DNA of 30,948 nt, taken from a virus. The DNA is taken from IMG/VR virus record IMGVR_UViG_3300031898_000010, positions 1 through 30,948 of that record; one strand, written 5' to 3'. The translations under genes were made by a program, and so were the position numbers. This document shows, in pieces, positions 18,201 through 30,837 of this stretch. Position 1 is the stretch's first letter; every line of letters begins with the position of its first letter. Under the pieces are notes generated by a model. The model was not told the DNA's origin, searched no databases, and was given only the letters and a program-made list of their open reading frames with translations.

Positions 18201-18239
18201 AATTGGTCAAATGCTAATGGGTATCCAGATTTTATGTAA
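15189..18239 (+). CDS. Tail hub / tail-associated protein with Cys-rich C-terminus
   Basis: A 1016-residue protein expected to close the tail tube and organise fibres. The N-terminus (SRPLIIIEVAWNGY, ADFTAPDN, LTIKLDDTNGTIFEIM, LFKGYINSPLEWNEGDRTVS) matches the beta-barrel start of siphovirus hub proteins. The centre carries VDIIEYLITTYLPDYTTDTS, a helix ERKEIFQLLQEIAFQAACAL, then YIVNNKFYIKYL and HTITEDLVTKLILEW, the conserved core of one hub group. From about residue 797 a Gly/Ser linker (WAGGSASGGGGMSESY) leads to a C-terminal domain of about 190 residues with many cysteines (GCHDSTLTGECGTICTG, CSAAQSFADAMREYA, GGCAGLEEREELCEG). No peptidase or lysozyme motif was found. The stop overlaps the convergent exonuclease gene by eight bases. 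Confidence 0.75.
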   Translation: MRSLNAAQLAEIAASDSRPLIIIEVAWNGYNKSAYADFTAPDNPTPYAPGRILELTGLDNVINISNNSVSQQLTIKLDDTNGTIFEIMKYNDVHLKPVWVYQWFEALSINDKFLLFKGYINSPLEWNEGDRTVSFTVLSKVDGPEVGFSPEEGLLQNLSDELVGEAWPMTFGTVKGVKAIRLTTLMAGTLADGFGIADFTLPSRAKAQLAIINYKKGGCVMNYLSQYLVLAGSDCEGDPSLYQEYLETLCTYDCQVATQRNTLRIIGGEYFPRGNITIRINDTYLTGYFISNTNIFQLSNIGNNYAINHPLYSKFIFYNQTQSSTTYLPATSCTCQTRVDNTKIKVYPYPILRKKAQEKEQTLIPSFSLPQYDYTGEIGGDTAGYVYNGPGTRVDLVTGRAQKYIVNMLPGIVESVYTYSTVNGNRFIVQLPTNLYTIGTMTFGPLTVTIIDIPTALSQINDTWQDDIYVNYKSNVGPNTVDIIEYLITTYLPDYTTDTSTFASVKTELQNLPSSFTLYERKEIFQLLQEIAFQAACALYIVNNKFYIKYLLTRYSAVATINKTDILLESLRIKHTITEDLVTKLILEWKSSDSSEEPNKIVLRHNVKKYGTKEETYQFYIYNWQYPILKHGTYWLIRKANTWKKAVFNTPLTKLALETFDYININLPNVLANTAVRSIIEQAIYDSEQHSIAFECWTPVKSGEMNEYIFAYPNAAVETDIFPTQAERLAGLLGSGSEFNQAVIGTLPDKNSLTNKFNVSGIDWGCGEWGDKSCLDCSQVKNIAACQSRSDKGQLNPGWAGGSASGGGGMSESYPSEGTGGSGAGAQTTDKDGVERYDKNDDLTAEELLGDLYSQHPLELPITPEASETCWYSVWVTFVNPVGLVHSGGIGCHDSTLTGECGTICTGPLEKSPEKYYFGSCSAAQSFADAMREYAATPACTGERHPHLVGGPLKMDLPIIGGCAGLEEREELCEGSYPKMIAFSPSEGTDWQDENGDDSWTKFANWSNANGYPDFM

Positions 18240-18837
18240 GCATTAATAATCTACGATAAACCTCAGCCGTGACGATTGCGTCTTGTAGCGCATCGTGCGG
18301 CTTCTGATTTTTAACACCTAAACGTGCGCATAGAAAGGTTAGATTATTTTGTGGAAATCGTATTTTTTCTGAACGTAAATCTTGTTGGTCGCGTATAAAT
18401 GCACTCACGGTCATTGTATCTCGATATACTGGATTAAATGAATATTCAAATGATGCGCGACCTAACCATTCAATAATAAATTCACGATCAAATGGCCAAT
18501 TTTGAGCAAGTGGAATAATCTTTTTATATATTGGTAAATGTAAACTATCAAACCATGTATCAAACATATCGGCCGCCGTAAATGGATCAGTAGCACGTTG
18601 TTGTCGTTTAGCAAATTCAACCTTATTCATTTTAACAGCATTTTTATCTATATTATCTGGTCGAGTGATTTTAATATCCATATAAAATGGAATATATTCT
18701 GAATGCGGTTTAAATAAACTATTTAATGGCAATATAGCAATTTGCCATATCTCATTTTTCTTAGGGTCTAACCCTGTAGTTTCAGTATCAATTGCACACA
18801 TTAAGTGTCCATGGCCAGTTGGAATACTAGCACTCAT
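18232..18837 (-). CDS. DnaQ-like DEDDh 3'-5' exonuclease 1
   Basis: A 201-residue exonuclease of the RNase H-like DEDD family, which removes nucleotides from 3' ends with two metal ions. ExoI is CAIDTETTGLDP (D17, E19), ExoII is AQNWPFDREFIIEWL (D117), and ExoIII is PHDALQDAIVTAEVYRRLL (H181, D186), so all five DEDDh residues are present. There is no polymerase or BRCT domain, so it is a free-standing nuclease. It is the last gene of the minus operon, and its start lies one base after the stop of a second, more diverged DEDDh gene. A role in proofreading, primer or RNA processing, or host DNA breakdown cannot be chosen from sequence. Confidence 0.85.
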   Translation of the reverse strand: MSASIPTGHGHLMCAIDTETTGLDPKKNEIWQIAILPLNSLFKPHSEYIPFYMDIKITRPDNIDKNAVKMNKVEFAKRQQRATDPFTAADMFDTWFDSLHLPIYKKIIPLAQNWPFDREFIIEWLGRASFEYSFNPVYRDTMTVSAFIRDQQDLRSEKIRFPQNNLTFLCARLGVKNQKPHDALQDAIVTAEVYRRLLMLT

Positions 18838-18838
18838 G

Positions 18839-19384
18839 CTAGTCTCCTAGTCCAATTCGTACTAATTTAACAACATCTATTGCATCTTGTAACGCTTCAT
18901 GTTTAGCACTATAGTCTAAACCAGCGCGTGTAAAACAGGTTTTAATATCAGGTAATTCAGTATCACCAGGTTTCCAAAATAATATCGCTGGATCAATAAC
19001 TCGATGTCTAATTTTAATTGTGTCATTGAAATAAGGTAACTTATCTAAAAATAATTTATCAAAAGTTCCAAAGTTTTTACCAGCTATATTAAGTTTTGTT
19101 TGTTTATTCCAACCACAATCAAGTAACCAATTAAGAAAAGTAGAGATAACATCATAAGAAGATATTGCATAATCTGGATTCTTTGATAATTCTAAAATTA
19201 ATCGGTGATTTAAAACAAACGCAAAAGCATCACCTATATAAGTAGGGTGTTTTACTAAACATCTAAATTTAGGTAACATATTTATTGAATCTATCATATT
19301 ATCCCAAACAGCACCAATTTCAAGTATTTGATGTTTTTCTGGATTAAGTCCTGTTGTCTCGACATCGATGCTGACGTATTGCAA
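18839..19384 (-). CDS. DnaQ-like DEDDh exonuclease 2 (TTG start)
   Basis: A second DEDD nuclease, 181 residues. The frame is open to an ATG at 19423, but a TTG at 19384 lies six bases after a perfect GGAGG and places the YVSIDVETTGLNP strand at the very N-terminus, as usual for the family, so I chose TTG. Visible residues are D7 and E9 (ExoI), D109 in AGKNFGTFDKLFLDKL (ExoII), and H162 and D167 in KHEALQDAID (ExoIII). The segment HRVIDPAILFWKPGD is typical of the oligoribonuclease/RNase T-like side of the family, so RNA or short oligonucleotide substrates are possible. It overlaps the upstream gene by about 40 bases. Confidence 0.8.
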   Translation of the reverse strand: MQYVSIDVETTGLNPEKHQILEIGAVWDNMIDSINMLPKFRCLVKHPTYIGDAFAFVLNHRLILELSKNPDYAISSYDVISTFLNWLLDCGWNKQTKLNIAGKNFGTFDKLFLDKLPYFNDTIKIRHRVIDPAILFWKPGDTELPDIKTCFTRAGLDYSAKHEALQDAIDVVKLVRIGLGD

Positions 19385-19610
19385 ATTTTTCCTCCAGATT
19401 TTGACGTTTAATACAACCCTCAAATAGTGCGATTATTTCATTAAGTAAAGTTTTACGATTAGTTAAAATATAAACTGCACAAGCATAAATTGGATCAGTT
19501 GGTGTTGGCATAATTTGTCTAGATCCAATTACTTGAAATAATTCACCGGCAGCAGGACCACCTACACATATACCGATAGTCTTTTTATTCTTTTTATTTT
19601 TTTTCTTCAC
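19344..19610 (-). CDS. Small Lys-rich protein, unknown
   Basis: An 88-residue protein starting at GTG 19610, six bases after AAAGGA, and overlapping the previous stop by about 17 bases. The N-terminus is strongly basic (KKKNKKNKKT), coded by an A-rich run. A short hydrophobic part with ICVGGPAAGELFQVIGSRQI follows, then a helix with YACAVYILTNRK. The end is charged (RQHRCRDNRT) and overlaps the start of exonuclease 2. I recognise no family. Nucleic-acid contact is possible from the basic tail, but this is a guess. Confidence 0.5.
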   Translation of the reverse strand: MKKKNKKNKKTIGICVGGPAAGELFQVIGSRQIMPTPTDPIYACAVYILTNRKTLLNEIIALFEGCIKRQNLEEKFAIRQHRCRDNRT

Positions 19611-19779
19611 GCTGTATCCTTTTGATTATTGGACATCGTAATATAACTGCTAATTTATCGGCTAATTTTGTTTCAGTATTATTGAAACTATGTCTTTCTA
19701 ATAAATAATTATAAACTAAAGTAGCTTCATCTACAGATAATATTACAATTGCTGATCCATCAATGTCTGTACTTGGCAT
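19594..19779 (-). CDS. Small protein, unknown
   Basis: A 61-residue protein whose ATG overlaps the methyltransferase stop (TAATG) and whose end overlaps the next gene. The sequence has one likely helix pair (SVDEATLVYNYLLERHSF, ETKLADKLAVIL) and a basic end (KRIQREEKK). There is no motif. The four-gene chain of one- to seventeen-base overlaps around it supports it as a real translationally coupled gene. Confidence 0.5.
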   Translation of the reverse strand: MPSTDIDGSAIVILSVDEATLVYNYLLERHSFNNTETKLADKLAVILRCPIIKRIQREEKK

Positions 19780-20471
19780 TAGTTATTCTCCTCTAGTGCT
19801 TTTTTATAATAAAACGGACTAATTTCAATACCAATATAATTTCTGTTTAATCGTTTACAAACTCGACCTGTTGTATTAGTACCAAAGAAGGGATCAATTA
19901 CTGTATCACCCTCCTTGGTACTTAGTAAAATACATCTTTTTACCAAATCTTCATTTAATTGAGTAGGGTGCCAAGGTCGACGTTGATGAGAATTTCCAGT
20001 AACGCGAGGAATATCAAAAACGTCTCCAGGTACTCTTCCCAATGGATTAGCACGCTTGTCTCCTAGTCGTTGTCGCTCTGATTCTATTCGCATTTCATAA
20101 ATTGGTGTATTTTTTCTTTTAATTCTTAATAGTGGTCTATAATTATTAGTCATATCATCTTCACGATATCGACCAAAATTAAATGTTTGTATACATAATC
20201 TTGCTTCTAGGTAAGGAAATATATATAATATTTCCTTAACAATAGCGCCCATTTCAAATATCCATTTAGTATTAAAAGATACCCAAACCGTTTCAGCTTG
20301 TGAAATAAATTGTAATAACCATTTATATAATTGTGCTGGATAATTTGAAAATTGATCTTTGAAACTTTCATAATTCCAGTCAATACCGTCTGGTGGATCG
20401 GCAAATATACATTGTACTTTAGGTAAAGTAGATAAAACTTCCATACAATCACCTAGAATTAATTTATTCAT
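19779..20471 (-). CDS. DNA adenine/cytosine-N4 methyltransferase, beta-class order
   Basis: A 230-residue S-adenosylmethionine-dependent methylase for exocyclic amino groups. Motif IV comes first (CIFADPPDGIDWNYESF, DPPD at 25-28) and motif I last (VIDPFFGTNTTGRVCKRLNR, about 191-210), followed by NYIGIEISPFYYKKA (motif II-like acidic E). This circular order is the beta class. Motif IV usually reads D/N/S-P-P-Y/F/W; here the aromatic is replaced by Asp, a variant I have seen in related phage and bacterial enzymes (ADPPDN-type). The middle region with NSHQRRPWHPTQLNEDL is typical of these enzymes. No restriction gene is adjacent, so protection against host restriction or self-marking is the likely role. 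The target site is unknown. Confidence 0.85.
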   Translation of the reverse strand: MNKLILGDCMEVLSTLPKVQCIFADPPDGIDWNYESFKDQFSNYPAQLYKWLLQFISQAETVWVSFNTKWIFEMGAIVKEILYIFPYLEARLCIQTFNFGRYREDDMTNNYRPLLRIKRKNTPIYEMRIESERQRLGDKRANPLGRVPGDVFDIPRVTGNSHQRRPWHPTQLNEDLVKRCILLSTKEGDTVIDPFFGTNTTGRVCKRLNRNYIGIEISPFYYKKALEENN

Positions 20472-21139
20472 CTTGCTTTTATTTCCTCAAAAGTTTTAAA
20501 ACCGGGAGTTCCAAATATACCATCCATGAAACCAAGATCAATAGATTGTTGTGGTGATAAATACCATTCCCTAAGAGTATTTATTTGATTACGTAAATAT
20601 TCTTTTATTTTATCTTTTGAATATTTATTCCGCTTAAAAAATGGTCCTTTATAACAACGTCCGGTATAAATATTTAACATGACTTCACCTAGTCGTTCAG
20701 CTTGTTTACCCTCAGCTATGAAACTTCTATCATCACCATCATATCCTGTTGTACCAAAATGAAGCATAAAATCAGCATGGGGCATAATAACACGTCGTTT
20801 AGCAGCCTGTGGTATAATACTTGACATACTTCTAGCATGAGCATGTGCAAGTACGGTAACGGGAGATGGACTAGTAAGAATAGCATCATAGATTGCTATG
20901 CCATAATTCCATTCGCCGCCACAAGTACACTGGTGTACTAAAATAGGTTGATGATTATATGAGTTAAGTAATAATAAATTTTTAATAAAAACATTAGCAC
21001 AAGTCCAGTCAATACCATCTTCATCATTATCAGGATTACTCATGAGTATAATTTCTCTAGTGTCAGGATTCAAATTAAAATTATGAAAATCAAAAAATAA
21101 ATTAGATCGTTGTATAATGGTTCGACGTGGTAATTTCAT
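20468..21139 (-). CDS. ClpP-like serine protease, outside the head module
   Basis: A 223-residue ClpP-fold protein. The oxyanion strand resembles ClpP with VHQCTCGGEWNYGIAIYDAI (about 68-87). HARSMSSIIPQAAKRRVIMP places the nucleophile at Ser104, and HADFMLHFG places the catalytic His at 127. By alignment to LREWYLSPQQSIDLGFMDGI, the third residue, Asp in ClpP (RDRF), would be Glu191 here, a conservative change that might affect activity. Phages often use ClpP-like proteins as head-maturation protease, but here the gene lies in the replication operon on the opposite strand, between methyltransferase and dNMP kinase. It may act with host Clp ATPase or on host proteins. Start and stop overlap both neighbours. 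Confidence 0.75.
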   Translation of the reverse strand: MKLPRRTIIQRSNLFFDFHNFNLNPDTREIILMSNPDNDEDGIDWTCANVFIKNLLLLNSYNHQPILVHQCTCGGEWNYGIAIYDAILTSPSPVTVLAHAHARSMSSIIPQAAKRRVIMPHADFMLHFGTTGYDGDDRSFIAEGKQAERLGEVMLNIYTGRCYKGPFFKRNKYSKDKIKEYLRNQINTLREWYLSPQQSIDLGFMDGIFGTPGFKTFEEIKAR

Positions 21140-21675
21140 GTTAGTAAATTAATGACAATATCATTTAAATCTTTAAGTGAACCCGTATTATTAATAACCT
21201 CATCCCAATCATTCCAATTATCTAATTCTATTTCAGCAGGATCAGTACCAGTAGGTATATTAGGTCGATTAATCTTAACTAACTTTCCATCTGCCTCTTT
21301 AATAGCTTTTGCTTCATTAGGAAAACGTAAATCAGTAATGATAATATAATCAATACCATTTGGTTGCAAAGCACACTGAATCCAAGTATCAGGGTGAATT
21401 TCTCGAACCTTATTACCTAGTTCAATCCAAATTTGACGTGGTGATTTCCCAATTAAAGGGAGAACTACTTCCTTTTCTTGGTAATTTGTTTCATAATAGA
21501 CACCACGTTGTAATCCACCCCACTTGTATAATTGATGTGCAATATCTTTTAACTTAGAAGCAAATGATACAGATTTAGTTGTATTACCTTGTAAACGTAA
21601 ATAAGTCGTAAGAAACTTGGCTGCGGTAGACTTCCCTACGCCTTTTTTATATCCGAAGGTGATTATTTTTGTCAT
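21136..21675 (-). CDS. Deoxynucleoside monophosphate kinase
   Basis: A 179-residue P-loop kinase that would phosphorylate dNMPs from host DNA breakdown for phage dNTP synthesis. The Walker A motif is GYKKGVGKST (8-17). SVSFASKLKDIAHQLYKWG and YETNYQEKEVVLPLIGKSPR match the substrate region of T4 gp1-like dNMP kinases. WIELGNKVREIHPDTWIQCA and DYIIITDLRFPNEAKAIKEA supply the conserved D-R-F/PNE motif of the family. It overlaps the upstream zinc-knuckle gene by ATGA and the ClpP-like gene by ATGA, within the DNA-metabolism operon. Confidence 0.88.
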   Translation of the reverse strand: MTKIITFGYKKGVGKSTAAKFLTTYLRLQGNTTKSVSFASKLKDIAHQLYKWGGLQRGVYYETNYQEKEVVLPLIGKSPRQIWIELGNKVREIHPDTWIQCALQPNGIDYIIITDLRFPNEAKAIKEADGKLVKINRPNIPTGTDPAEIELDNWNDWDEVINNTGSLKDLNDIVINLLT

Positions 21676-21896
21676 TGGTTCCTCATTAAAGACTCACGAT
21701 CAGTAATTCCACAAGTCAAACATTGTTGACGACTAGCATCGTGTTGTATATGTTCACATGATTTATAATGATGTGCAGCAATATCAAGAGCATGTAATAT
21801 AATATTATGCCATGCATTATTGGGTATTACACGCCTTAATCTGGATAAAATACAATATTGTTCCTCTGTTAACTCTATAAGTAATTTGAATTTCAT
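21672..21896 (-). CDS. Small helical protein with Cys/His knuckle
   Basis: A 74-residue protein. The frame extends to an ATG at 21926 but that start has its only SD-like sequence two bases away. The ATG at 21896 overlaps the previous stop (TAATG) and has AAGGA eight bases upstream, so I chose it. The front is helical (ELTEEQYCILSRLRRVIP, HNIILHALDIAAHHY). The end has C47, H49, C59 and C62 (CEHIQHDASRQQCLTCG), which could bind one zinc. No family is recognised. Confidence 0.5.
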   Translation of the reverse strand: MKFKLLIELTEEQYCILSRLRRVIPNNAWHNIILHALDIAAHHYKSCEHIQHDASRQQCLTCGITDRESLMRNQ

Positions 21897-22099
21897 TAAT
21901 TTTTCCTTATTTTTCCATAACTCCAAACTCCAGTTGATTCCAAAATTTCAAGATTAGGAAAATTAGTAGAATTGATGTGTATACCAATATACTCGTTATC
22001 ACCAAATTTTACAAATTGACTAAAACCATGATCGAAAGCATGACTTAACTGCCTTCGTTGTTCAAGGGTAAGACGTTCAATTTGGGCTTTTATTGACAT
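21896..22099 (-). CDS. Small protein, unknown
   Basis: A 67-residue protein starting within the last codons of the primase-helicase gene. It has an N-terminal helix (KAQIERLTLEQRRQLSHAFD) and a beta-type second half with GDNEYIGIHI. Overlaps on both sides suggest translational coupling. No function can be offered. Confidence 0.45.
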   Translation of the reverse strand: MSIKAQIERLTLEQRRQLSHAFDHGFSQFVKFGDNEYIGIHINSTNFPNLEILESTGVWSYGKIRKN

Positions 22100-24774
22100 A
22101 CAAGTTGATCCCCTCGTAATATTAATTTAGGTTTACTAAGATCAGTTGGTGGAGTAAATGATATATTCCCAATATAAAACTGAGCACCCTTAGACATAAC
22201 ACGACCCTTTGGATATTTTGTTGGCAGTTCACGACCAAACTTAATCTTAGACCATTGGTAAACATCATTTGGATCAAGCCAATTTATAAATTGATTAAAT
22301 AAATCAGCATATAAAACCATTTCTCCTGGCGCATAATGACATTTTTCATCTAAGAATATTTCCAAAGTTGTTCTATTTAGTTGTGCTGTTTGATATTTAA
22401 TATCAGTATCAATAACCGGCACATTAAGTCTATCTTGTGATGGCGGTATCTCGATACTAAGAATCTCACCAAGGAAATCAGATGATTCTTGTTCTAATAG
22501 TGCTTTTAATTGTTGTGGCATTAACATATCAATTAAATCAAGTGGTGGTACTTCAATCATAGTAATTCGAGTATCACCAGAAAATACTGGACACTCAAAT
22601 ACACCATTACCTGTATGTATAAAATGTACGGTATTAGTGACTTGATACGGGGTTTTACCTTTATGGTGTAACATCATAATATCTGATGTAACCCAATCTT
22701 TAATTCTATTTCGAGCTGAATAATTCTTTTGCAAATCGGTTTCTTCTATAGCACATAATAACGCATTTTCTAATTCCCCATTAAAACCTGCTCCAGAAAT
22801 AAGAGCCAAATCAGCACGAACATAACCATGAGTCATAAGAGAACCTATAGACTCATGGAATGTAGTCTTACCAGTTCGTTCTTCTTTGGAATAAAGAAAT
22901 AGATAGGGTAAATGTCGTTTGGGATATTGAAAAAGAGAAGCTATCCAAATTTTAAGATAATCGGCACCGGTTTTAATATTATTAGCAATACACCAACCAT
23001 TATTTGCAACTGATATATTTAATCCTGATCCACAATGCTCTAATACTTTTTGCCAGGTAGGATACTTAAATTCCTCACCCTCTTTTGGTTTATAACGATA
23101 TTGTGCCGCTTTTCTATTCCATTTTCTATTACCAGGAAATTCAGGTTGAAATGGATCATTAGTAATAGTCCAACCTTCAAATACACACTTACCAAGAATT
23201 GTATTGATTTCAAAATCACTAAGTTTTAATGCACGTAATGCTAAACGTACATTAACATAAGGTTCTTCTCTCCAAATAGAACTACTTCTAAGAACCCAAC
23301 CAAGATCGTTTCCATTTGGACTAATAATATGTCTTACAATATGATCGTATTCAAGAACTTCTGATTCACCAGGTTGATTAAGTTTGGCATTATAAATACG
23401 TTTCCAGTAACCTTTATCTTCACGCCAACCTTCAATTGGTAAATCATGACTTTCCCTTTTGATTGCAAAAATCAAACGTCCATCTTTATGTTCTTTTAAT
23501 TCAGCAGTTCGTCCTTTTGCCCAATCTGGTAAATTTACTATCGCACCTAAACTAGCCGCGGTAGAAACAGCTTTTTCCGCATTTGAAAATTGAAATCGAC
23601 CTTTCTCATCCTCTATTCCGTTAAATGTTCGGCTAGCGATATTAAGTGTAGGTTCTCTGTTGTAGAAACATCGAGTAAATCCACTAGAATCCTGATCCCA
23701 ATTAGAGGATTCCTGAACGCCAACAGTAAATCGACGTACTACCCAGGCACCCTCAGGGCGTTCCAATGGAATAGCAAAACAATTATGATCAGCACCCTGT
23801 TCTTTTCCTGTAGCAATTGTGTCAAAAATTCCTCTTAATCCTAATTTCTTATGAACAGTTTTAAGATCAAAAGTATGGCAGACTAATAAGTTACGATCTT
23901 GGTCCCACCACCAAGATGCGTTAATTTCATCTAATGCTGCTAAAATCTTTTTATGTTGCTCATCAAGTTTAATTTTAACTCGTTGATTTGTTAAATCTTC
24001 AAATAAATCAAAGCTAGTATCAATATATTTAGGTAAATCTCGTTTCTTTGAGTTTCCTTTAATGACAGTAAGATGATCTCTCCAATTGATTGGAATATCT
24101 TTTAATATTTCACCTTGTTTAATAAGAATAAGTCCATCTTTTGAATATTGCATCTTACGGTGCCAAATCCATAAAACATGTCCACACACATCAACTTGAC
24201 TATTAAAATCATAACCCGTAATTGCAGTCAATTTACCAAGAATTGCTCGCGCTAATGCTGCATGTTCAGTATGATTTTCTGTAGGTACATTATCTAGGAA
24301 AATGTATAAGTGTAATCCCGTACCAGAAGTAGATTTTCTAACAGTAACCCAAGGTATATCACAAACTACCTTTTTAATAGCCTGTAATTCTGTATTAGTA
24401 AGACCAGATGCGTGTGTGATTATAGCATCAAAATCAAACCCAACATACCTAGATACTTTGTTCTTCCAATCCCAGCCAGTAAGTCCTATACCTTCTGCGT
24501 GTTCAGTTAAGGAATATTTGATAATAAAATCATTATCTTCCGGTATTGAGTAAGAATTCTTGGGGATACGAAAAGATGCCCAAGTTTGTATACCATCGGT
24601 ATAGGAATGCCAGGTTCTCCCTTTAAATCCTTCAGTAGAGATACGTTGACCATTATCTTGGGCCACGTTGACTTGGACTTCCAAATCAGAATTATAGAGT
24701 GTGGCCAAATCGGGAAGGGTATTAGCCTCCAAGAAACGTTTGATAGCTTCAGAGCGTTTTGGTTGCTGGGACAT
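22090..24774 (-). CDS. Primase-polymerase fused to SF3-type helicase
   Basis: An 894-residue replication protein. The N-terminal archaeo-eukaryotic primase-like domain (about 60-230) has YVGFDFDA (D114, D116) as metal ligands and RKSTSGTGLHLYIFL (146-160) as the S-x-G-x-H catalytic motif, with WIWHRKMQYSKD near 202. A linker and middle domain follow. The C-terminal ATPase has Walker A SKEERTGKTT near 627-636, Walker B LLCAIEETD near 673, and motif C VHFIHTGNG near 716, as in superfamily 3/D5-like helicases. A phage with this protein can prime and unwind its origin with one polypeptide. It is the first gene of the minus operon, facing the 24775-25370 control region. The shine-dalgarno is weak and the 5' leader resembles that of the divergent gene. 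Confidence 0.85.
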   Translation of the reverse strand: MSQQPKRSEAIKRFLEANTLPDLATLYNSDLEVQVNVAQDNGQRISTEGFKGRTWHSYTDGIQTWASFRIPKNSYSIPEDNDFIIKYSLTEHAEGIGLTGWDWKNKVSRYVGFDFDAIITHASGLTNTELQAIKKVVCDIPWVTVRKSTSGTGLHLYIFLDNVPTENHTEHAALARAILGKLTAITGYDFNSQVDVCGHVLWIWHRKMQYSKDGLILIKQGEILKDIPINWRDHLTVIKGNSKKRDLPKYIDTSFDLFEDLTNQRVKIKLDEQHKKILAALDEINASWWWDQDRNLLVCHTFDLKTVHKKLGLRGIFDTIATGKEQGADHNCFAIPLERPEGAWVVRRFTVGVQESSNWDQDSSGFTRCFYNREPTLNIASRTFNGIEDEKGRFQFSNAEKAVSTAASLGAIVNLPDWAKGRTAELKEHKDGRLIFAIKRESHDLPIEGWREDKGYWKRIYNAKLNQPGESEVLEYDHIVRHIISPNGNDLGWVLRSSSIWREEPYVNVRLALRALKLSDFEINTILGKCVFEGWTITNDPFQPEFPGNRKWNRKAAQYRYKPKEGEEFKYPTWQKVLEHCGSGLNISVANNGWCIANNIKTGADYLKIWIASLFQYPKRHLPYLFLYSKEERTGKTTFHESIGSLMTHGYVRADLALISGAGFNGELENALLCAIEETDLQKNYSARNRIKDWVTSDIMMLHHKGKTPYQVTNTVHFIHTGNGVFECPVFSGDTRITMIEVPPLDLIDMLMPQQLKALLEQESSDFLGEILSIEIPPSQDRLNVPVIDTDIKYQTAQLNRTTLEIFLDEKCHYAPGEMVLYADLFNQFINWLDPNDVYQWSKIKFGRELPTKYPKGRVMSKGAQFYIGNISFTPPTDLSKPKLILRGDQLVCQ

Positions 24775-24835
24775 TTTGATGAGAAAATCCGTAAAAGTTG
24801 ACGCTAGAGAATAGTCATTGGACTATATGCGTCAG

Positions 24836-24850
24836 GCCGCAGATTGCGGC
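24836..24850. repeat. Small perfect hairpin GCCGCA-GAT-TGCGGC
   Basis: Six G/C-rich base pairs with a three-base loop in the 5' leader of the primase-helicase transcript, between the shared leader element and the start codon. No T-run follows on either strand, so it is more likely an RNA leader structure or protein site than a terminator. Confidence 0.6.
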
Positions 24851-24858
24851 ATAAGAAA

Positions 24859-24892
24859 GATTTTCCTATCAATGTAATCAAAAAATCAAATC
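24859..24892 (-). promoter_or_regulatory. Shared leader/promoter element, minus copy
   Basis: On the minus strand GATTTGATTTTTTGA is followed by TTACAT and then TGATAGGAAAATC. The same 15-mer and TGATAGAAAAATC occur on the plus strand at 25299-25329. Within it TTGTAA and TACATT are 17 bases apart, a weak sigma-70-like match. It ends about 84 bases before the primase-helicase start. The copy in opposite orientation upstream of the other arm argues for a common control signal. Confidence 0.6.
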
Positions 24893-24949
24893 ATTACAAT
24901 AACTACAGAATTACCATAAATACTTACGTCGAAACAAGGTTAGTTGTTC

Positions 24950-25127
24950 ACAGATTACAGATTACAGCTACAGATTGGGGGTGGTTTGTCTATAGGGAAG
25001 GGTACTCTACTCTCTTCTGTATGGTCTAGTAAACTAGAGTTGTAGTTGTAGTAGTAGTTATAAATGTAAATGGCATAACAACTTACGTATTACAGATTGT
25101 CCATTATACTTGTAGCTCACCTTACGT
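24950..25127. repeat. Iterated short words ACAGATT and CTTACGT
   Basis: ACAGATT occurs at 24950, 24957, 24970 and 25092. CTTACGT occurs at 24923, 25082 and 25121, partly interleaved. Short iterated words in a divergent phage region can be initiator-binding iterons or regulator sites. The copies are short, so chance cannot be excluded. Confidence 0.45.
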
Positions 25128-25181
25128 CAACCCCTCTTCTGGAATGTTCACTATGTTTATCAACATTTTCTGACAATATAT

Positions 25182-25207
25182 TACGCGCGTACGCGCGCAT
25201 ACGCGCG
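25182..25207. repeat. 26-nt alternating purine-pyrimidine tract with three ACGCGCG units
   Basis: Three ACGCGCG units (25183, 25191, 25201) make a strictly alternating purine-pyrimidine run, with the 14-bp palindrome CGCGCGTACGCGCG inside it (25184-25197). Such runs can flip to Z-DNA under negative supercoiling. It is the most GC-rich spot of a very AT-rich region and is flanked by AT-rich DNA. Confidence 0.7.
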
Positions 25208-25227
25208 AATAAATAATGAATGAACAT

Positions 25228-25245
25228 TTGTACACTAGTGAACAA
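25228..25245. promoter_or_regulatory. Operator-like near-palindrome TTGTACACTAGTGAACAA
   Basis: Sixteen of 18 positions are symmetric around CACTAGTG. The half-site TGTTCACTA recurs at 25145-25153, inverted with respect to TAGTGAACA at 25236-25244. The layout, about 80 bases apart on either side of the ACGCGCG tract, is typical of dimeric repressor sites. The regulator is unknown. Confidence 0.5.
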
Positions 25246-25298
25246 TGTAAGTCTTTTCGACGTAATTAGTTGTGGCGGATCATGCTTTGCCTTATTTT

Positions 25299-25329
25299 GA
25301 TTTGATTTTTTGAATATGATAGAAAAATC
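25299..25329 (+). promoter_or_regulatory. Shared leader/promoter element, plus copy
   Basis: GATTTGATTTTTTGA (25299-25313), then TGATAGAAAAATC (25317-25329), ending 41 bases before the ParB-like start. A TATGAT at 25315-25320 could be a -10 box, but no good -35 lies at 16-18 bases. Both this leader and the minus leader carry GATTTTCT followed by TCAT between the element and the start codon. Confidence 0.6.
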
Positions 25330-25353
25330 AATGTTTATGATTTTCTTCTCATT

Positions 25354-25363
25354 TCCACGTGGA
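25354..25363. promoter_or_regulatory. TCCACGTGGA palindrome on the ParB-like gene's SD
   Basis: A perfect 10-bp palindrome whose right half forms part of GGAGG (25361-25365), the ribosome binding site of the start at 25371. Its CACGTG core is the core of bacterial parS. Two more CCACGTGG octamers occur, at 2023 and inside TTTCCACGTGGAAA at 15999-16012. Autoregulation by the ParB-like product is inferred. Confidence 0.45.
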
Positions 25364-25370
25364 GGCGAAA

Positions 25371-26339
25371 ATGCCAGACGTTACCAGTGTTGCAGTAATC
25401 GCGTTAAAGGACATTCGTGAGAATCCGGTTGCTTTGCGCGCTGTAAACCGTGAGTCAGAAGAATATCTTGGCCTAGTTGATTCAATTCGTAGAGTTGGAT
25501 TGTTAAATCCAATTAGTGTACGGAAACAGGTGCGGGTAGTTGATGATATTACAATCACTTATTATGAGTTGATTGATGGTTTACATCGTTTTTCAGCAGC
25601 ACAAGATGCTGGTTTAATTGAAGTTCCGGTTCTTATTAAGGAACTAGATAATAGTGAGACTATTGAAGCGCAGATTATGGCAAATGTGCATAAGATTGAG
25701 ACGCGCCCTGTTGAGTATACGAAGGCCCTACAACGGATTTTCGTATCAAATCCGACTCTTACACTAGGTCAAATGGCAACCAAAATTGCTAAGAGTCCGG
25801 CCTGGTTGAGTCAACGTCTTAATCTATTGCGCTTGAGTGCTGAAGTTCAAGCTCTGGTTGATAGTGGTCAAATTACGGTGTCTAATGCCGTTGAATTAGC
25901 CAAGCTACCAGTGGAAGAGCAAGCTAATTATATTGACCAAGCAATCACAATGGATGTGAGCGAATTCGTACCTATGGTACAGTCTCGTGCCAAAGAACTC
26001 AGAGATGCTAAGCGTCAAGGACGTTCAGCAACGCCGGCAGTGTTTGTACCGGGTCCACGTCTCCGTAAAATGAGTGAACTAACGACTGAGAATACATCTC
26101 CAGTTGTTGGCCCACAACTTTGTGCTAGACTAGGTATTGATGATGCGGCAGCCGGATTTGCACTCGGAGTTGCTTGGGCAATCAATCTTGATCCAGTAAC
26201 CGTCGAAGTCCGTAAGGCCGATGCTGCTGCTAAAAAGGCCGCCCTAGATGATGCTAAGAGGAAGCGGACTGCCGAACGTGCTCAGAAAAAGGCGGATGAT
26301 GCCGCTGCCGCTGCTGCTAAGGCACTAGCTGAAGTGTAG
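25371..26339 (+). CDS. ParB-like DNA-binding protein
   Basis: A 322-residue protein. A GTG at 25359 is in frame, but the ATG at 25371 has GGAGG five bases upstream, so it is the likely start. The N-terminal ParB/sulfiredoxin-like domain runs about residues 5-110: IALKDIRENP, GLVDSIRRVGLLNPISV, YELIDGLHRFSAAQDAG (GLHR in place of the common GERR), then ANVHKIETRPVEYTKAL. A helix-turn-helix lies at 131-152 (TLGQMATKIAKSPAWLSQ). The last 45 residues are Ala/Lys-rich helix. Phage ParB-like proteins can bind DNA, regulate, or act as nucleases. No ParA partner is present, so partition is not implied. The gene uses more G- and C-rich codons than its neighbours. Confidence 0.82.
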   Translation: MPDVTSVAVIALKDIRENPVALRAVNRESEEYLGLVDSIRRVGLLNPISVRKQVRVVDDITITYYELIDGLHRFSAAQDAGLIEVPVLIKELDNSETIEAQIMANVHKIETRPVEYTKALQRIFVSNPTLTLGQMATKIAKSPAWLSQRLNLLRLSAEVQALVDSGQITVSNAVELAKLPVEEQANYIDQAITMDVSEFVPMVQSRAKELRDAKRQGRSATPAVFVPGPRLRKMSELTTENTSPVVGPQLCARLGIDDAAAGFALGVAWAINLDPVTVEVRKADAAAKKAALDDAKRKRTAERAQKKADDAAAAAAKALAEV

Positions 26340-26357
26340 CGTGGCTTCTCTTGGGTC

Positions 26358-26394
26358 AAGTCTTATCGGCATGATGCCGGTAAGACTTTCTTTT
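26358..26394 (+). terminator. Intrinsic terminator after the ParB-like gene
   Basis: AAGTCTTATCGGC (26358-26370) pairs with GCCGGTAAGACTT (26376-26388) with one T-G wobble and a five-base loop, followed by TCTTTT. It lies 18 bases after the stop and 12 bases before the next gene, whose AAGGA SD starts right after the T-run. Partial termination would lower expression of the genes downstream relative to the ParB-like gene. Confidence 0.85.
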
Positions 26395-26405
26395 AAGGAA
26401 ACAAA

Positions 26406-27065
26406 ATGAACGACTTAGTACCACAGGATTTACAGCAAAGCGCCATTGTACCTGTTGATTTTGATTCTATGGTCAAGAGCGCTGATTATCTTGGGCGCTT
26501 TCAGTTATTTAGTAGTAAATCGGATGCTTGTGCTGAGGGTAGAATCGGAATCGGTCATTATGGCTTGGTTAAGGATGACGTTATTACTGATCTTGGAGTT
26601 AGTATTGATGTAGGTGTCTTGTCTTGGCGACCTAAGGCGTTGAGTATTGAGGGTGATAATGTTATCAATAGTTATAATCCTGAAATCCAAGATGGTGTTA
26701 TTACTAATCCTCTCTTTAAGGATATTGTTGAACGATCAGCAACGCCAAATTCTGGTTGTATGTACGGTCCAGAATTTCTGTTGTGGCTTCCTAGTATTGG
26801 TGACTTTGCACTATTTCATGCTAATAGTAAGACTGCTCGACGTGAAGCTAAGAAATTGCAACCTCTTATTGGTAATGCGGCTACATTTCGTGCTCATTTG
26901 ATTGAGAAGGGTAAGTATAAGTGGCACGGTCCTGTTATTACACAATGTTCTACTCCAATTGCTCCGCCCCCAGAAAATAGGCTTCGTGCGGAGTGGGAAA
27001 AATTTCATAATCCGCCTACTGACACAGTAGAAATTGCTGATGGTTCATCTGATAGAGCACAGTAA
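26406..27065 (+). CDS. Conserved phage protein of unknown function
   Basis: A 219-residue soluble protein with an AAGGAAAC ribosome binding site. The core has a pattern I associate with a widespread uncharacterised phage family: FQLFSSKSDACAEGRIGIGH, YGLVKDDVITDLG, LSWRPKALS, CMYGPEFLLWLPSIGDFALF, SKTARREAKKLQPLIGNAA, then YKWHGPVITQCSTP. The N- and C-termini are poorly ordered; the tail is acidic and Pro-rich (HNPPTDTVEIADGSSD). A beta-barrel core with an acidic tail would suit a single-strand DNA-binding protein, and the neighbouring SNF2 and ParB-like genes are consistent with DNA work, but I see no decisive motif. The stop overlaps the next start. Confidence 0.6.
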   Translation: MNDLVPQDLQQSAIVPVDFDSMVKSADYLGRFQLFSSKSDACAEGRIGIGHYGLVKDDVITDLGVSIDVGVLSWRPKALSIEGDNVINSYNPEIQDGVITNPLFKDIVERSATPNSGCMYGPEFLLWLPSIGDFALFHANSKTARREAKKLQPLIGNAATFRAHLIEKGKYKWHGPVITQCSTPIAPPPENRLRAEWEKFHNPPTDTVEIADGSSDRAQ

Positions 27066-27259
27066 TGTTAGATGCTGTTACACTTGATGAAATGCCGCAA
27101 TGGGTATTATGTGAAGTTAAATATGGTACTACTATTGTAAGACGATTTAGAGTAGATACATATGGTTATTCATTATATAAAGGTTGTTTACCAGAGCGCT
27201 TATTACGAGCTAAAGAATACATTGTTATTAAAATCATTCGCAGGGTTAAAGTAGAGTGA
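27065..27259 (+). CDS. Small protein, unknown
   Basis: A 64-residue basic, beta-rich protein with its ATG overlapping the previous stop (TAATG). Sequence features are WVLCEVKYGTTIVRRFRVDT and EYIVIKIIRRVKVE. It is probably a small single-domain protein. No motif was recognised. Confidence 0.5.
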   Translation: MLDAVTLDEMPQWVLCEVKYGTTIVRRFRVDTYGYSLYKGCLPERLLRAKEYIVIKIIRRVKVE

Positions 27260-27268
27260 GAGGGAAAT

Positions 27269-27763
27269 ATGGCCGGTCAAAGCAGCGTAACACCATTAGT
27301 AGCGACAACCGTGGCGTGGTCGCATTTTCTTGAAGCCGCTAAGGCTTTGACCGGCCACTCTCTTACTAGTAAAATTGATAGTTATACGTATAAACTATCA
27401 GATTTTCAAAAATGGTTAATGGCATTAGAAGAATTTACTGGTTATCACGATAGTTTATTAGATCAATTATTTTTTGGTTTTCTTATTACTGGTAAAAAAG
27501 TAATAAAAAATATTATTCTAAGAACTAGTCTCTCGGTTATACCCTCTAAAAATGGTGAGGTAGCTATTGTTACTGGTAAATTGAGTGAATGGCAAAACGC
27601 GATTATATCAATTTTACAACATGCACGTAATCAAGAATTAATTTATGTTTTTGATGAGATATATTTATACTTTGATAAGTTTGGTTTGATTTCAATATTT
27701 AGTAATTATCAGCGTAAGGAAATAGGGGATCATTACTTTCTATTGGAGTATCATGGAAAATGA
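27269..27763 (+). CDS. Unrecognised protein with structured start region
   Basis: A 164-residue protein starting after AGAGGG. The first 30 codons carry a 14-bp inverted repeat (27270-27283 and 27344-27357) that embeds the start codon. The protein is mixed: a short N-terminal part (TPLVATTVAWSHFLEAAKAL), a helical middle (LSDFQKWLMALEEFTGYH), and a beta/helix C-terminal part (IYVFDEIYLYFDKFG). No membrane or enzyme motif is visible. It overlaps the SNF2 gene start by four bases, so its expression is probably coupled to the helicase. Confidence 0.5.
   Translation: MAGQSSVTPLVATTVAWSHFLEAAKALTGHSLTSKIDSYTYKLSDFQKWLMALEEFTGYHDSLLDQLFFGFLITGKKVIKNIILRTSLSVIPSKNGEVAIVTGKLSEWQNAIISILQHARNQELIYVFDEIYLYFDKFGLISIFSNYQRKEIGDHYFLLEYHGK
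27270..27357 (+). repeat. 14-bp inverted repeat across a start codon
   Basis: TGGCCGGTCAAAGC (27270-27283) pairs perfectly with GCTTTGACCGGCCA (27344-27357). The 60-base loop contains a further GCGAC (27302-27306) to GTCGC (27319-27323) stem. Two bases of the ATG (27270-27271) belong to the stem. The structure can hide the start codon and favour translational control. Confidence 0.7.
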
Positions 27764-29457
27764 AAGTGGAAACCAAATTCAGGGTAGATAAATATCTTTA
27801 TCCTGTTACCCTTAATTTTGATGGTGATAAAATTTGGGTATTTTTTCGCTATAATAAGCAACTAGTTGCTGAGATTAAAACATTCGCAGGCGCTAAATGG
27901 TGGGGCGGGGAAGAACCGCCAATTAAGGCGTGGACAATTTCTAATACACCACGTAATCTTTTTCGCCTAGCTTACCTTCAAGGTAAGAATCCATACGCTT
28001 GGTATGATAAGGAAATCATAAAGAATGAATACGAGCGTCCTCTTTACTTACATCAACGTGACGGTGCAGACTTCGTATTAGCGGTACGGCGTTGTATTAT
28101 TGCTATGGAAATGGGCACTGGAAAAACATTATTAGTAGAAGAAGTAATAGAACGATCTGGAATCAAAGGCCCAAATTGGTGGTATGTAGCACCTAAATCT
28201 GCTCTAAGAGCAGTTCAACGTGAATTCCGGATTTGGCAATCAAAAGTATGGCCTAAATTTATGACTTATGAAGCTCTGGTTAAGGAAATGAAAAATTGGG
28301 TTGACGGATTCCGGGCACCAATGGGTGTTGTATTTGATGAATCAGCTAGGGTAAAAAATCCAACTGCACAGCGTAGCCAAGCAGCTATGCAGTTAGCTGA
28401 TGGTATACGTTCTGATTGGGGTGATGCGGGGTACATCATACTAATGAGCGGTGCGCCAGCACCTAAGTCCCCAGTTGATTGGTGGCATCAAGCAGAAATA
28501 GCATGTCCCGGGTATCTAAGAGAAGGTGATATTTATAAATTTAAAAATCGTCTTGCGGTAATACAACAAAAATCTGATATGCAAGGTGGTGTTTATCCAC
28601 AACTAGTTGCCTGGCGCGATGATGAGCACAGGTGTGATATTTGTGGTAAATTTATAGAAGAGCATAAGGATATTATTTTCGATGAGGGTGAAGATCATGA
28701 ATTTAAGGCTTCTAAGAATGAGGTTAGTTATTTGTATGAGCGCTTAAAAGGTCTTGTTTTTATTAGAATGAAAAAAGATTGTCTTGATTTGCCTGAAAAA
28801 CAATATCGTAAAGTAATACTAGAGCCAACGCAAAAGATACTAAATTTAGCTAGAACAATAGTTAATACGTCACCTACAACTATTCAAGCTATTACTTTGA
28901 TTCGAGAATTATCAGATGGATTTCAATATCAAAAAGATGGTAGTACAGAATATATTGATAGTCCTAAAGAAGGTGCTATTGTTGATATTTTAGATGAATT
29001 AAGTGATATTGGTCGTATAGTTATTTATGCTGGTTTTACGGCCAGTGTTGATAAGTGTGTTGAAATTTGTAATAAATGCGGTTGGCAAACAATAAAAGTA
29101 GATGGCCGTGGTTGGAAGATGTCAGACGGATTAGAGGATGACCCACTTGATATTTTTCAAGATAAATTAGAAAAGTATCCATTTGTTGCTTTTGTTGCGC
29201 ACCCTGGAAGTGGTGGTGTTGGTTTAACACTTACCGCATCACCGGTAGAGGTTTTCTACTCTAATGATTTTGATGCAGATCATCGTATTCAAGCAATAGA
29301 GCGCATTCACCGACCTGGTATGGATTTTAACCGCGGCGCAACTATAATAGACTTAATTCATCTTCCAACAGATCAACTTATTCTCGATAATTTAGAATTG
29401 AAGAAAAGATTACAAGATTTAACTATGGGTGAAATAACTAGAGTATTAGGTAGTTAG
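27760..29457 (+). CDS. SNF2-type DNA-dependent ATPase/helicase
   Basis: A 565-residue superfamily-2 ATPase that would translocate on DNA and remodel nucleoprotein or branched DNA. Motifs in order: LHQRDGADFVLA (Q-like), Walker A MEMGTGKT (116-123), YVAPKSALRAVQREF (Ia), Walker B VVFDESARVKNP (190-201, DESA in place of DEAH), MSGAPAPKSPVDWWHQ (III, 229-244), then a CDIC zinc-knuckle-like insert (292-295). In the C-terminal lobe are VIYAGFTASVDKCVEI, HPGSGGVGLTLTAS (V, about 480) and RIQAIERIHRPG (VI). It lacks chromatin-type accessory domains and is of phage size. It follows ParB-like and unknown genes and precedes a DNA-binding phosphoesterase, implying DNA repair, recombination or replication support. 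Confidence 0.88.
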   Translation: MKVETKFRVDKYLYPVTLNFDGDKIWVFFRYNKQLVAEIKTFAGAKWWGGEEPPIKAWTISNTPRNLFRLAYLQGKNPYAWYDKEIIKNEYERPLYLHQRDGADFVLAVRRCIIAMEMGTGKTLLVEEVIERSGIKGPNWWYVAPKSALRAVQREFRIWQSKVWPKFMTYEALVKEMKNWVDGFRAPMGVVFDESARVKNPTAQRSQAAMQLADGIRSDWGDAGYIILMSGAPAPKSPVDWWHQAEIACPGYLREGDIYKFKNRLAVIQQKSDMQGGVYPQLVAWRDDEHRCDICGKFIEEHKDIIFDEGEDHEFKASKNEVSYLYERLKGLVFIRMKKDCLDLPEKQYRKVILEPTQKILNLARTIVNTSPTTIQAITLIRELSDGFQYQKDGSTEYIDSPKEGAIVDILDELSDIGRIVIYAGFTASVDKCVEICNKCGWQTIKVDGRGWKMSDGLEDDPLDIFQDKLEKYPFVAFVAHPGSGGVGLTLTASPVEVFYSNDFDADHRIQAIERIHRPGMDFNRGATIIDLIHLPTDQLILDNLELKKRLQDLTMGEITRVLGS

Positions 29458-29464
29458 AATAATT

Positions 29465-29614
29465 ATGAAATATAAATATATAGCTAAGGATGGAGAAGTA
29501 ATACATCGTAAATACAAAGTCGATACCATAATTATACATAAACAAAAGAAAGTAGGACCATTACAGAAAGGTGACTTTCACAAAGTTTACAAACGATGGC
29601 TACACCAAGATTAA
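29465..29614 (+). CDS. 49-residue basic protein
   Basis: A short gene from ATG 29465 to TAA 29612, overlapping the next gene by 19 bases. The product is Lys/Tyr-rich (KYKYIAKDGEVIHRKYKV, IHKQKKVGPLQKGDFHK) with about a quarter basic residues. Nucleic-acid binding is possible. The SD is weak, so the evidence is mostly the clean fit between two genes. Confidence 0.4.
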   Translation: MKYKYIAKDGEVIHRKYKVDTIIIHKQKKVGPLQKGDFHKVYKRWLHQD

Positions 29615-30837
29615 AACAAGAGAAGCGGGATGCAGTTACTAAAGATATAAATGAAGGACTACTAACAACTTCTGATATTGCCGTAAAACATAAGGTATCA
29701 GTGGGAACTGTTAGTAATATACGTAATAATATTATACCAGATGACACTGATTCTAGTGAGAAAAAGGTTTTACAATTAGAGGCACAAAATATTGCCTTAA
29801 AAGACGAAATAACTAGGTGTAAACGTGCATATAAGCGCGCACAACGTGAAAATAGTGTATTTGAAGCAATGGCTGATGAATTAGAAAAAGTTATTACACC
29901 CATTTCGTTTTTACCACCAGTTGTAAAAATACCACAAAAAACAAAAGTGATTAAAGAATCATTAGTCGCATATTTAAGTGATGAACACGCTGATACGGAA
30001 GTTCTTCCACATCAAGTTGGAGGATTAGAAAGATATAATTTTCCAATTGCACTGCGACGTGCTGAAACTTATGTTGATTCTATACTTAAATTTACACAAA
30101 GTACACTAGCTAATTATCATTTTCATACTTTATGGATTTTTGCCATTGGAGATCATACTAGCGGTGAGATTCATAAGTCGGTAGATCACTCTTATTATCG
30201 AAATCAAATACGAAATTGTTTAGCTATTGGTCAAATGCACACTTTAATGTTTAGGGATTTAGCTCCGCATTTTGAACAAATAAAAGTTTTATATTTACCC
30301 GGAAATCATGGCCGACGCAGTGAAAAGAAAGATTATCATGGCGCTTGGGATAATTGGGATTATCTAGTTGCTGAGACTGCTCGATTACATTGCGTGAATC
30401 TTACAAACATAGAATTTTTGATTCCGGACTCATTTTCTGCGTGTGTAGAAATTGAGGGTTGGAATTTTGGTTTATCTCATGGTGATGATATTAGAAGTTG
30501 GAATAGTATTCCGTGGTACGGTATCGAAAGAAAAACTCGTCGTTTGATTGCATTATCAACTATACAACGTAAACAAATTGATTATTTTGGTTTTGGGCAT
30601 TTTCATCAACCTGCTAATCATGTTGTATTAAAAGGGGAAGTTTTAATTAATGGTAGTTGGATTGCTACTGATCCGTATATTTATGAAAGATTTTCTAGTT
30701 ATACTGTTCCTAGTCAATATATTCACGGTGTGCATCGTGATTTTGGAATATCTTGGCGTTTGAAAGTTAGATTACAAACACCTAAAGAGCATTTAGGGCC
30801 AGACCGGTATGTTGTAAACTTGGCAAAGGAAATTTGA
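29596..30837 (+). CDS. HTH-coiled-coil metallophosphoesterase fusion
   Basis: A 413-residue protein in three parts. Residues 13-45 form a helix-turn-helix (EGLLTTSDIAVKHKVSVGTV, then SNIRN) like the recognition domain of transposase or repressor families. Residues 55-97 are a coiled coil (LQLEAQNIALKDEIT, RAQRENSVFEAMADELE). Residues 120-345 form a calcineurin-type phosphoesterase with all five motifs: SDEHAD (128-133), GDHTSG (185-190), PGNHGRR (235-241), SHGDD (294-298), GFGHFHQP (332-339). The metal ligands therefore look complete. Phosphoesterases of this fold include Mre11/SbcD nucleases. The DNA-binding front suggests a DNA-targeted enzyme. Next to an SNF2 helicase it could process DNA ends. 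Confidence 0.85.
   Translation: MATPRLKQEKRDAVTKDINEGLLTTSDIAVKHKVSVGTVSNIRNNIIPDDTDSSEKKVLQLEAQNIALKDEITRCKRAYKRAQRENSVFEAMADELEKVITPISFLPPVVKIPQKTKVIKESLVAYLSDEHADTEVLPHQVGGLERYNFPIALRRAETYVDSILKFTQSTLANYHFHTLWIFAIGDHTSGEIHKSVDHSYYRNQIRNCLAIGQMHTLMFRDLAPHFEQIKVLYLPGNHGRRSEKKDYHGAWDNWDYLVAETARLHCVNLTNIEFLIPDSFSACVEIEGWNFGLSHGDDIRSWNSIPWYGIERKTRRLIALSTIQRKQIDYFGFGHFHQPANHVVLKGEVLINGSWIATDPYIYERFSSYTVPSQYIHGVHRDFGISWRLKVRLQTPKEHLGPDRYVVNLAKEI

Follow-up and report, generated by a model that had tools for sequence, protein, structure and literature searches.

Between the divergently oriented primase and ParB-like genes of an uncultivated tailed phage lies a gapped inverted duplication with arms of about 104 bp each (24859-24962 / 25226-25329) that, to judge from its anatomy and its evolution, is likely to represent a pair of phage-specific promoters, each followed by a leader. 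Its architecture is conserved in most relatives of the phage, while its sequence is private to each genome, and these putative promoters are probably read by a sigma factor or activator of the phage that evolves fast. The window considered here (the whole stretch of DNA analyzed, 30,948 nucleotides) is a 30.9-kb genome fragment, in which a 596-bp AT-rich gap separates two divergent gene blocks, with the primase side on the minus strand and the ParB side on the plus strand. Gene annotation agrees with the first-pass annotation of this DNA that both flanking blocks carry replication and DNA-processing genes. The features referred to below are the following:

18232-24774, minus strand: left gene block (primase/helicase-like, dNMP kinase-like, ClpP-like protease, DNA methylase, exonuclease)
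22090-24774, minus strand: primase/helicase-like gene (DUF5906; PHROG DNA primase), first gene of the left block
25371-30837, plus strand: right gene block (ParB-like, SNF2-like helicase, exonuclease-like protein)
25371-26339, plus strand: ParB-like gene (ParB_N and HTH_ParB), first gene of the right block
24859-24962, minus strand: left arm of the duplication, facing outward to the primase gene (0 of 2000 shuffles equal its alignment with the right arm)
25226-25329, plus strand: right arm of the duplication, facing outward to the ParB gene
24944-24951, minus strand: upstream box GTGAACAA of the left arm, putative -35-like, the same in both arms and at the same distance from TTTCGACGTAA
25238-25245, plus strand: upstream box GTGAACAA of the right arm, putative -35-like, the same in both arms
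24924-24934, minus strand: downstream box TTTCGACGTAA of the left arm, putative -10-like, with CGTA
25255-25265, plus strand: downstream box TTTCGACGTAA of the right arm, putative -10-like, with CGTA
24878-24893, minus strand: leader motif TGATTTGATTTTTTGA of the left arm, containing the 15-mer, with TGATTTGATT at 24884-24893
25298-25313, plus strand: leader motif TGATTTGATTTTTTGA of the right arm, containing the 15-mer
24859-24871, minus strand: TGATAGGAAAATC of the left arm, whose GAAAATC can pair with the GATTTT of the leader motif over 6 bp, by itself not significant
25317-25331, plus strand: TGATAGAAAAATCAA of the right arm, in which AAAAATCAA (25323-25331) pairs with TTGATTTTT (25302-25310) over 9 bp

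Local alignment of one arm with the other gives a score of 59, for a maximum of 31 among 2000 shuffles and of 42 among another 500. The first-pass annotation had described only part of this duplication, namely an inverted 15-mer (GATTTGATTTTTTGA, at 25299-25313 on the plus strand and 24878-24892 on the minus strand), a nearby companion TGATAG(A/G)AAAATC (TGATAGAAAAATC at 25317-25329, plus strand; TGATAGGAAAATC on the minus strand), and GATTTTCT..TCAT between each copy and its start codon, all of which are present as described. The 15-mer is found nowhere else in the window, even when 2 mismatches are allowed (0.24 expected). Its inverted occurrence had been considered unlikely by chance, which holds only moderately (86 of 5000 dinucleotide shuffles of the 596-bp gap, 1.7%), whereas the larger duplication lies far beyond shuffles.

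Besides the 15-mer, the best-conserved part of the duplication is GTGAACAA-N9-TTTCGACGTAA, two blocks absent from that earlier description. Each arm has the same layout, with these two boxes followed by the 15-mer 35-37 nt past CGTA; box positions are alike between the arms at 19 of 19 sites and their spacing is exact, while the 9-nt spacer is alike at only 2 of 9. Exact boxes around a free spacer are what two promoter boxes would look like. This fixed-spacing anatomy, the outward orientation of both copies, and the conservation of the architecture in most relatives support the idea of a common promoter or regulator site for both arms. The signal itself had nevertheless been placed in the 15-mer, which turns out to be the leader motif of the whole lineage and is probably situated past the transcription start. 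The promoter-like part is located 35-60 nt further upstream.

Other elements lie close to the two start codons. The primase leader harbors a strong nested fold just 5' of the start codon (24800-24856, GCCGCAATCTGCGGC and TGACGC...GCGTCA), and the region 24775-24900 folds at -36.5 kcal/mol, without a U run. On the other side, a palindrome TCCACGTGGA with a CACGTG core (25355-25364, parS-like at its centre) overlaps the Shine-Dalgarno sequence of the ParB gene, and is not evident in the relatives looked at. Far from the gap, a tail-fibre-like gene (10772-13150) contains several near-identical tandem repeats (HGNLTGLGDDDHSQYHNDTRGDARYFTEAEHINTSAG).

Relatives were gathered with the primase (16 loci) and with an alignment of several ParB proteins (80 loci), and the primase gene is divergent to the ParB gene in nearly all of these loci. 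Searches among isolated phages gave no nucleotide match, protein searches returned only distant primase and ParB proteins (around 25-33% identity), and GTDB genomes yielded two weak ParB matches; an exact scan of viral contigs for the 15-mer gave at least 120 matches and was not informative. No paper uniting divergent promoters, inverted repeat, phage, primase and ParB was found in the literature. The gaps were compared in a set of 66 distinct sequences of at most 1.1 kb, from uncultivated relatives with the divergent ParB/primase layout. The inverted likeness of one half of the gap to the other exceeds all 200 shuffles in 53 of the 66 (median z 11.3), versus 23 cases and a median z of 2.9 for the direct-orientation control on the same gaps. 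In 50 of 66 genomes, the best match of an arm among all 66 is its own partner (median score of 45.5 for own arms, 19.5 across genomes), the arms being alike inside a genome and not between genomes. Conservation in related phages, which had been proposed as a check on the shared site, is thus observed for the architecture, but not for the sequence of the copies, which co-varies within each genome.

All 779 usable genome pairs at 40-70% ParB identity group by genome, and the only two usable pairs that exceed 80% do so by side. L164 and L184, at 81% ParB identity, differ jointly in both arms over a core of about 35 bp, while much of the flank has changed separately. This grouping by genome, together with the co-changed core, indicates that the two arms evolve in concert. 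Could such likeness simply reflect a recent duplication, or gene conversion or inversion between arms that share no function? Identity is indeed higher within genomes than between orthologous arms, and near-perfect blocks of 33-42 bp occur in L142 and in L154, but this explanation appears quite improbable given that the boxes of the window are fully alike at exact spacing around a diverged spacer, that the architecture persists in 66 diverged genomes, that dispersed copies elsewhere in the genome co-vary too, and that no serine or tyrosine recombinase was detected in 34 contigs. An invertible (phase-variable) promoter was rejected from the same search, as neither PF00239 nor PF00589 was found in these 34 contigs, which may be incomplete, while positive controls were matched. 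In L158, the shared block reaches about 80 bp, which is longer than a two-box promoter needs, and a further DNA-binding protein may be involved.

The promoter-like geometry can be followed across the lineage. In relatives, CGTA clusters 30-44 nt ahead of the leader motif (35 and 37 nt in the window) and, within 60-180 nt before start codons, it is oriented outward 85 times and inward 46 times (p 8e-4). When the 21 genomes with CGTA are anchored on the -10-like box, column identity between arms peaks at -22..-12 and -4..+9, two maxima some 17 nt apart on either side of a dip, with background from +15, although these profiles were built from alignments chosen for similarity, and the peaks are inflated accordingly. 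Two boxes at promoter spacing, conserved between copies, are the configuration looked for in promoters of a phage sigma factor. With a generic sigma-70 matrix, outward scores in the arms are not above shuffles (mean z 0.16), and TTGACA-17-TATAAT of host sigma-70 promoters is not above chance overall, with single exceptions (TTGTTA-17-TATAAT in L212). Unsupervised EM motif search revealed no shared promoter motif, and recovered mostly Shine-Dalgarno-like words. Bacterial ECF-type sigma promoters carry GGAAC / CGT boxes, to which the arms bear some likeness (TGAAC-N17-CGTA in the window, GGAAC and then CGTA in L175), but this is a resemblance only, as the boxes vary among genomes, and the best PDB matches of the phage proteins presented below are SigF/SigB/FliA-like and not ECF.

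The main rival to a sigma factor as reader of the arms is a DNA-binding activator or repressor, favored by palindromes of the L164/L168/L184 group. In a more specific form, considered unlikely, a phage regulator (the ParB-like protein, for example, controlling its own promoter and that of the primase) would bind both arms as a pair of operators, with the genome-specific sequence as its site, and transcription would be started by host sigma-70. ParB-like proteins do contain an HTH domain, some arms have a good sigma-70 promoter (as the L212 example above), palindromes such as GTAAGTCACCTAATTAGGTGACTTAC occur in the arms of this same group as well as upstream of the L184 sigma-like gene, and a spaced GTAAGT..ACTTAC palindrome reaches 0.18 per kb in the gaps versus 0.001 per kb outside. 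Most arms, including those of the window, nonetheless consist of two separated boxes at promoter spacing without a long palindrome, and conservation stops just past the -10-like box, both of which count against such operators.

Copies of the core are also found at other genes. A piecewise scan of the contigs of 12 relatives with their own arms revealed a third copy, in front of a gene that encodes a Cys/His-rich protein of some 175-205 aa. In L144 this gene is close to that of the terminase large subunit, and its product is for this reason probably the small terminase subunit (TerS). For the region before the putative terS gene, the arms of the same genome rank first of 66 in 9 of 21 cases and among the top five in 13 of 21 (p 1e-11), and own arms are the best in 14 of 21 when only the 21-genome arm set is considered. 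This fit to own arms suggests that the copies behave like a single set of sites with a common reader. With own arms as query, the core was likewise detected in L158 and L201, in front of a second ParB-like gene, and own-arm sequence precedes the sigma-like gene in L184 and L189 (2 of the 12 sigma-like genes tested). Relatives therefore possess several copies at the start of gene blocks (putative terS, second ParB), while in the window only the two arms were seen, with no third promoter copy above background heading a plausible operon. As the same promoter precedes other operons in relatives, it would not be a switch private to the two arms. A weaker promoter copy is present in the genome of L212 (L239:13401-13449, minus strand), before a gene for a secreted trypsin-like protease look-alike.

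These dispersed copies also bear on the possibility that the gap is a replication origin made of inverted repeats, the arms being recognition sites for an initiator or the primase. The gap adjoins the primase gene, an alternating CGCGCGTACGCGCGCATACGCGCG tract occupies its centre amid AT-rich sequence (25185-25207), and CGCGCG is enriched in the primase/ParB gaps of relatives (seven phages, 0.38 versus 0.06 per kb). Core copies standing at the start of packaging and second-ParB genes and pointing toward the gene, and conservation with the geometry of a promoter, make an origin the most improbable of the alternatives.

Which factor, then, could read such promoters? Contigs of most relatives encode a divergent sigma-70-like protein of about 170-250 aa, with PF04545 found in 24 of 34 contigs and PF04542 in 14 of 34 (E <= 0.01, many of them weak). 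A profile of 12 of these proteins matches bacterial sigma factors in the PDB at 2e-22, and in a predicted structure (pLDDT 76, flexible between domains) all matches at E <= 0.001 are sigma factors. The family (L297, L299, L301, L302 and others) diverges fast, its members being 15-34% identical to the first one within the lineage. The gene was not found in the window, which covers a 31-kb fragment only, and a sigma-70-family gene is documented in relatives only. PF00940, used as a query for T7-type RNA polymerase, matched 0 of 34 contigs, and the search control was likewise without match. That the promoters are read by the phage sigma-like protein is a possibility that we place slightly short of an even chance.

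Downstream of the promoter-like core, each arm carries TGATTTGATT, a word inside the 15-mer that is common to the lineage. It occurs 72 times in the gaps (2.1 per kb) versus 7 times in 708 kb around them, an enrichment of about 200-fold, and is oriented outward in 45 of 132 half-gaps (0.3 expected); half-gaps with GATTTGATT in one orientation only are outward in 32 cases and inward in 3 (p 4e-7). No relevant use of the string GATTTGATT appeared among the literature matches listed. A complementary word tends to come after TGATTTGATT (mean helix of 7.5 bp, 5.25 in shuffles, p 1.5e-7), the upstream control for this complement being not significant, and in the window it is borne by the companion TGATAG(A/G)AAAATC (over 9 bp for the right arm and 6 bp for the left). 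Leaders have better folding scores than shuffles, but these are equivalent for sense (z -1.36) and antisense (z -1.37), so that folding does not separate an RNA hairpin from a DNA operator. An IHF site was rejected: the consensus of such sites is WATCAANNNNTTR, and by eye the TTR part next to AATCAAATCA fits the left arm only, and fails in the right arm and in most relatives. TGATTTGATT is also found after canonical-looking sigma-70 promoters of other operons, at L222:2301-2459 and L226:2036-2158 (genomes of L004 and L140), preceded by TTGACA-17-TATATT and TTGACC-17-TATACT, respectively. The leader motif can thus occur without the genome-specific promoter.

Host RNA polymerase is redirected to phage promoters by sigma factors that phages themselves encode, such as gp28 and gp34 of SPO1 or gp55 of T4, and the parallel drawn here with them is one of role. 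Divergent phage sigma factors with essential roles have been discussed (PMC9429907), and pairwise alignment of intergenic regions has revealed low-copy promoters of phage sigma factors in phiEco32 and Salmonella phage 7-11 (PMC4331800). If a sigma factor is indeed involved, the case described here would work like the promoters of these two phages, which encode a divergent sigma factor and have low-copy, well-conserved phage-specific boxes at the start of gene blocks (PMC4331800). In contrast to them, two mirrored copies are placed here between divergent primase and ParB genes lineage-wide, their sequence differs in nearly every genome, a lineage-wide leader motif follows, and the system is described from sequence analysis. 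Promoters of phage sigma factors are thus already known, while what is new is that a mirrored pair recurs at one gene junction throughout a lineage, that its copies diverge in concert, and that a leader motif follows.

Taken together, each copy would comprise a -35-like box (GTGAACAA in the window), a -10-like box (TTTCGACGTAA in the window, with CGTA), a transcription start probably about 10-15 nt past the latter, and the leader TGATTTGATT, after which its complement often comes. RNA polymerase would be sent outward from both copies by a phage factor acting in trans, most likely the divergent sigma-70-like protein, leading to joint expression of the primase and ParB blocks, and in relatives the same promoter would also start the packaging block. 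We propose that a single factor has to recognize every copy in a genome, which keeps the copies alike, and that they would drift together between genomes as this factor evolves. Somewhat more tentatively still than the assignment of the reader, this could be a lineage where a fast-evolving phage sigma factor and a handful of promoters co-diverge in each genome, as a private promoter code with a mirror pair at the primase/ParB junction, in addition to a lineage-wide leader.

If so, this lineage would constitute a natural collection of sigma/promoter pairs, dozens of them matched and divergent, from which it may be learned how promoter recognition evolves. The function of the leader motif TGATTTGATT represents a second, independent question. 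The junction would mark the phage's own promoter in any genome of the lineage, by mere comparison of the two sides of the primase/ParB gap, and would thus offer a first transcription map for phages without a cultured member.
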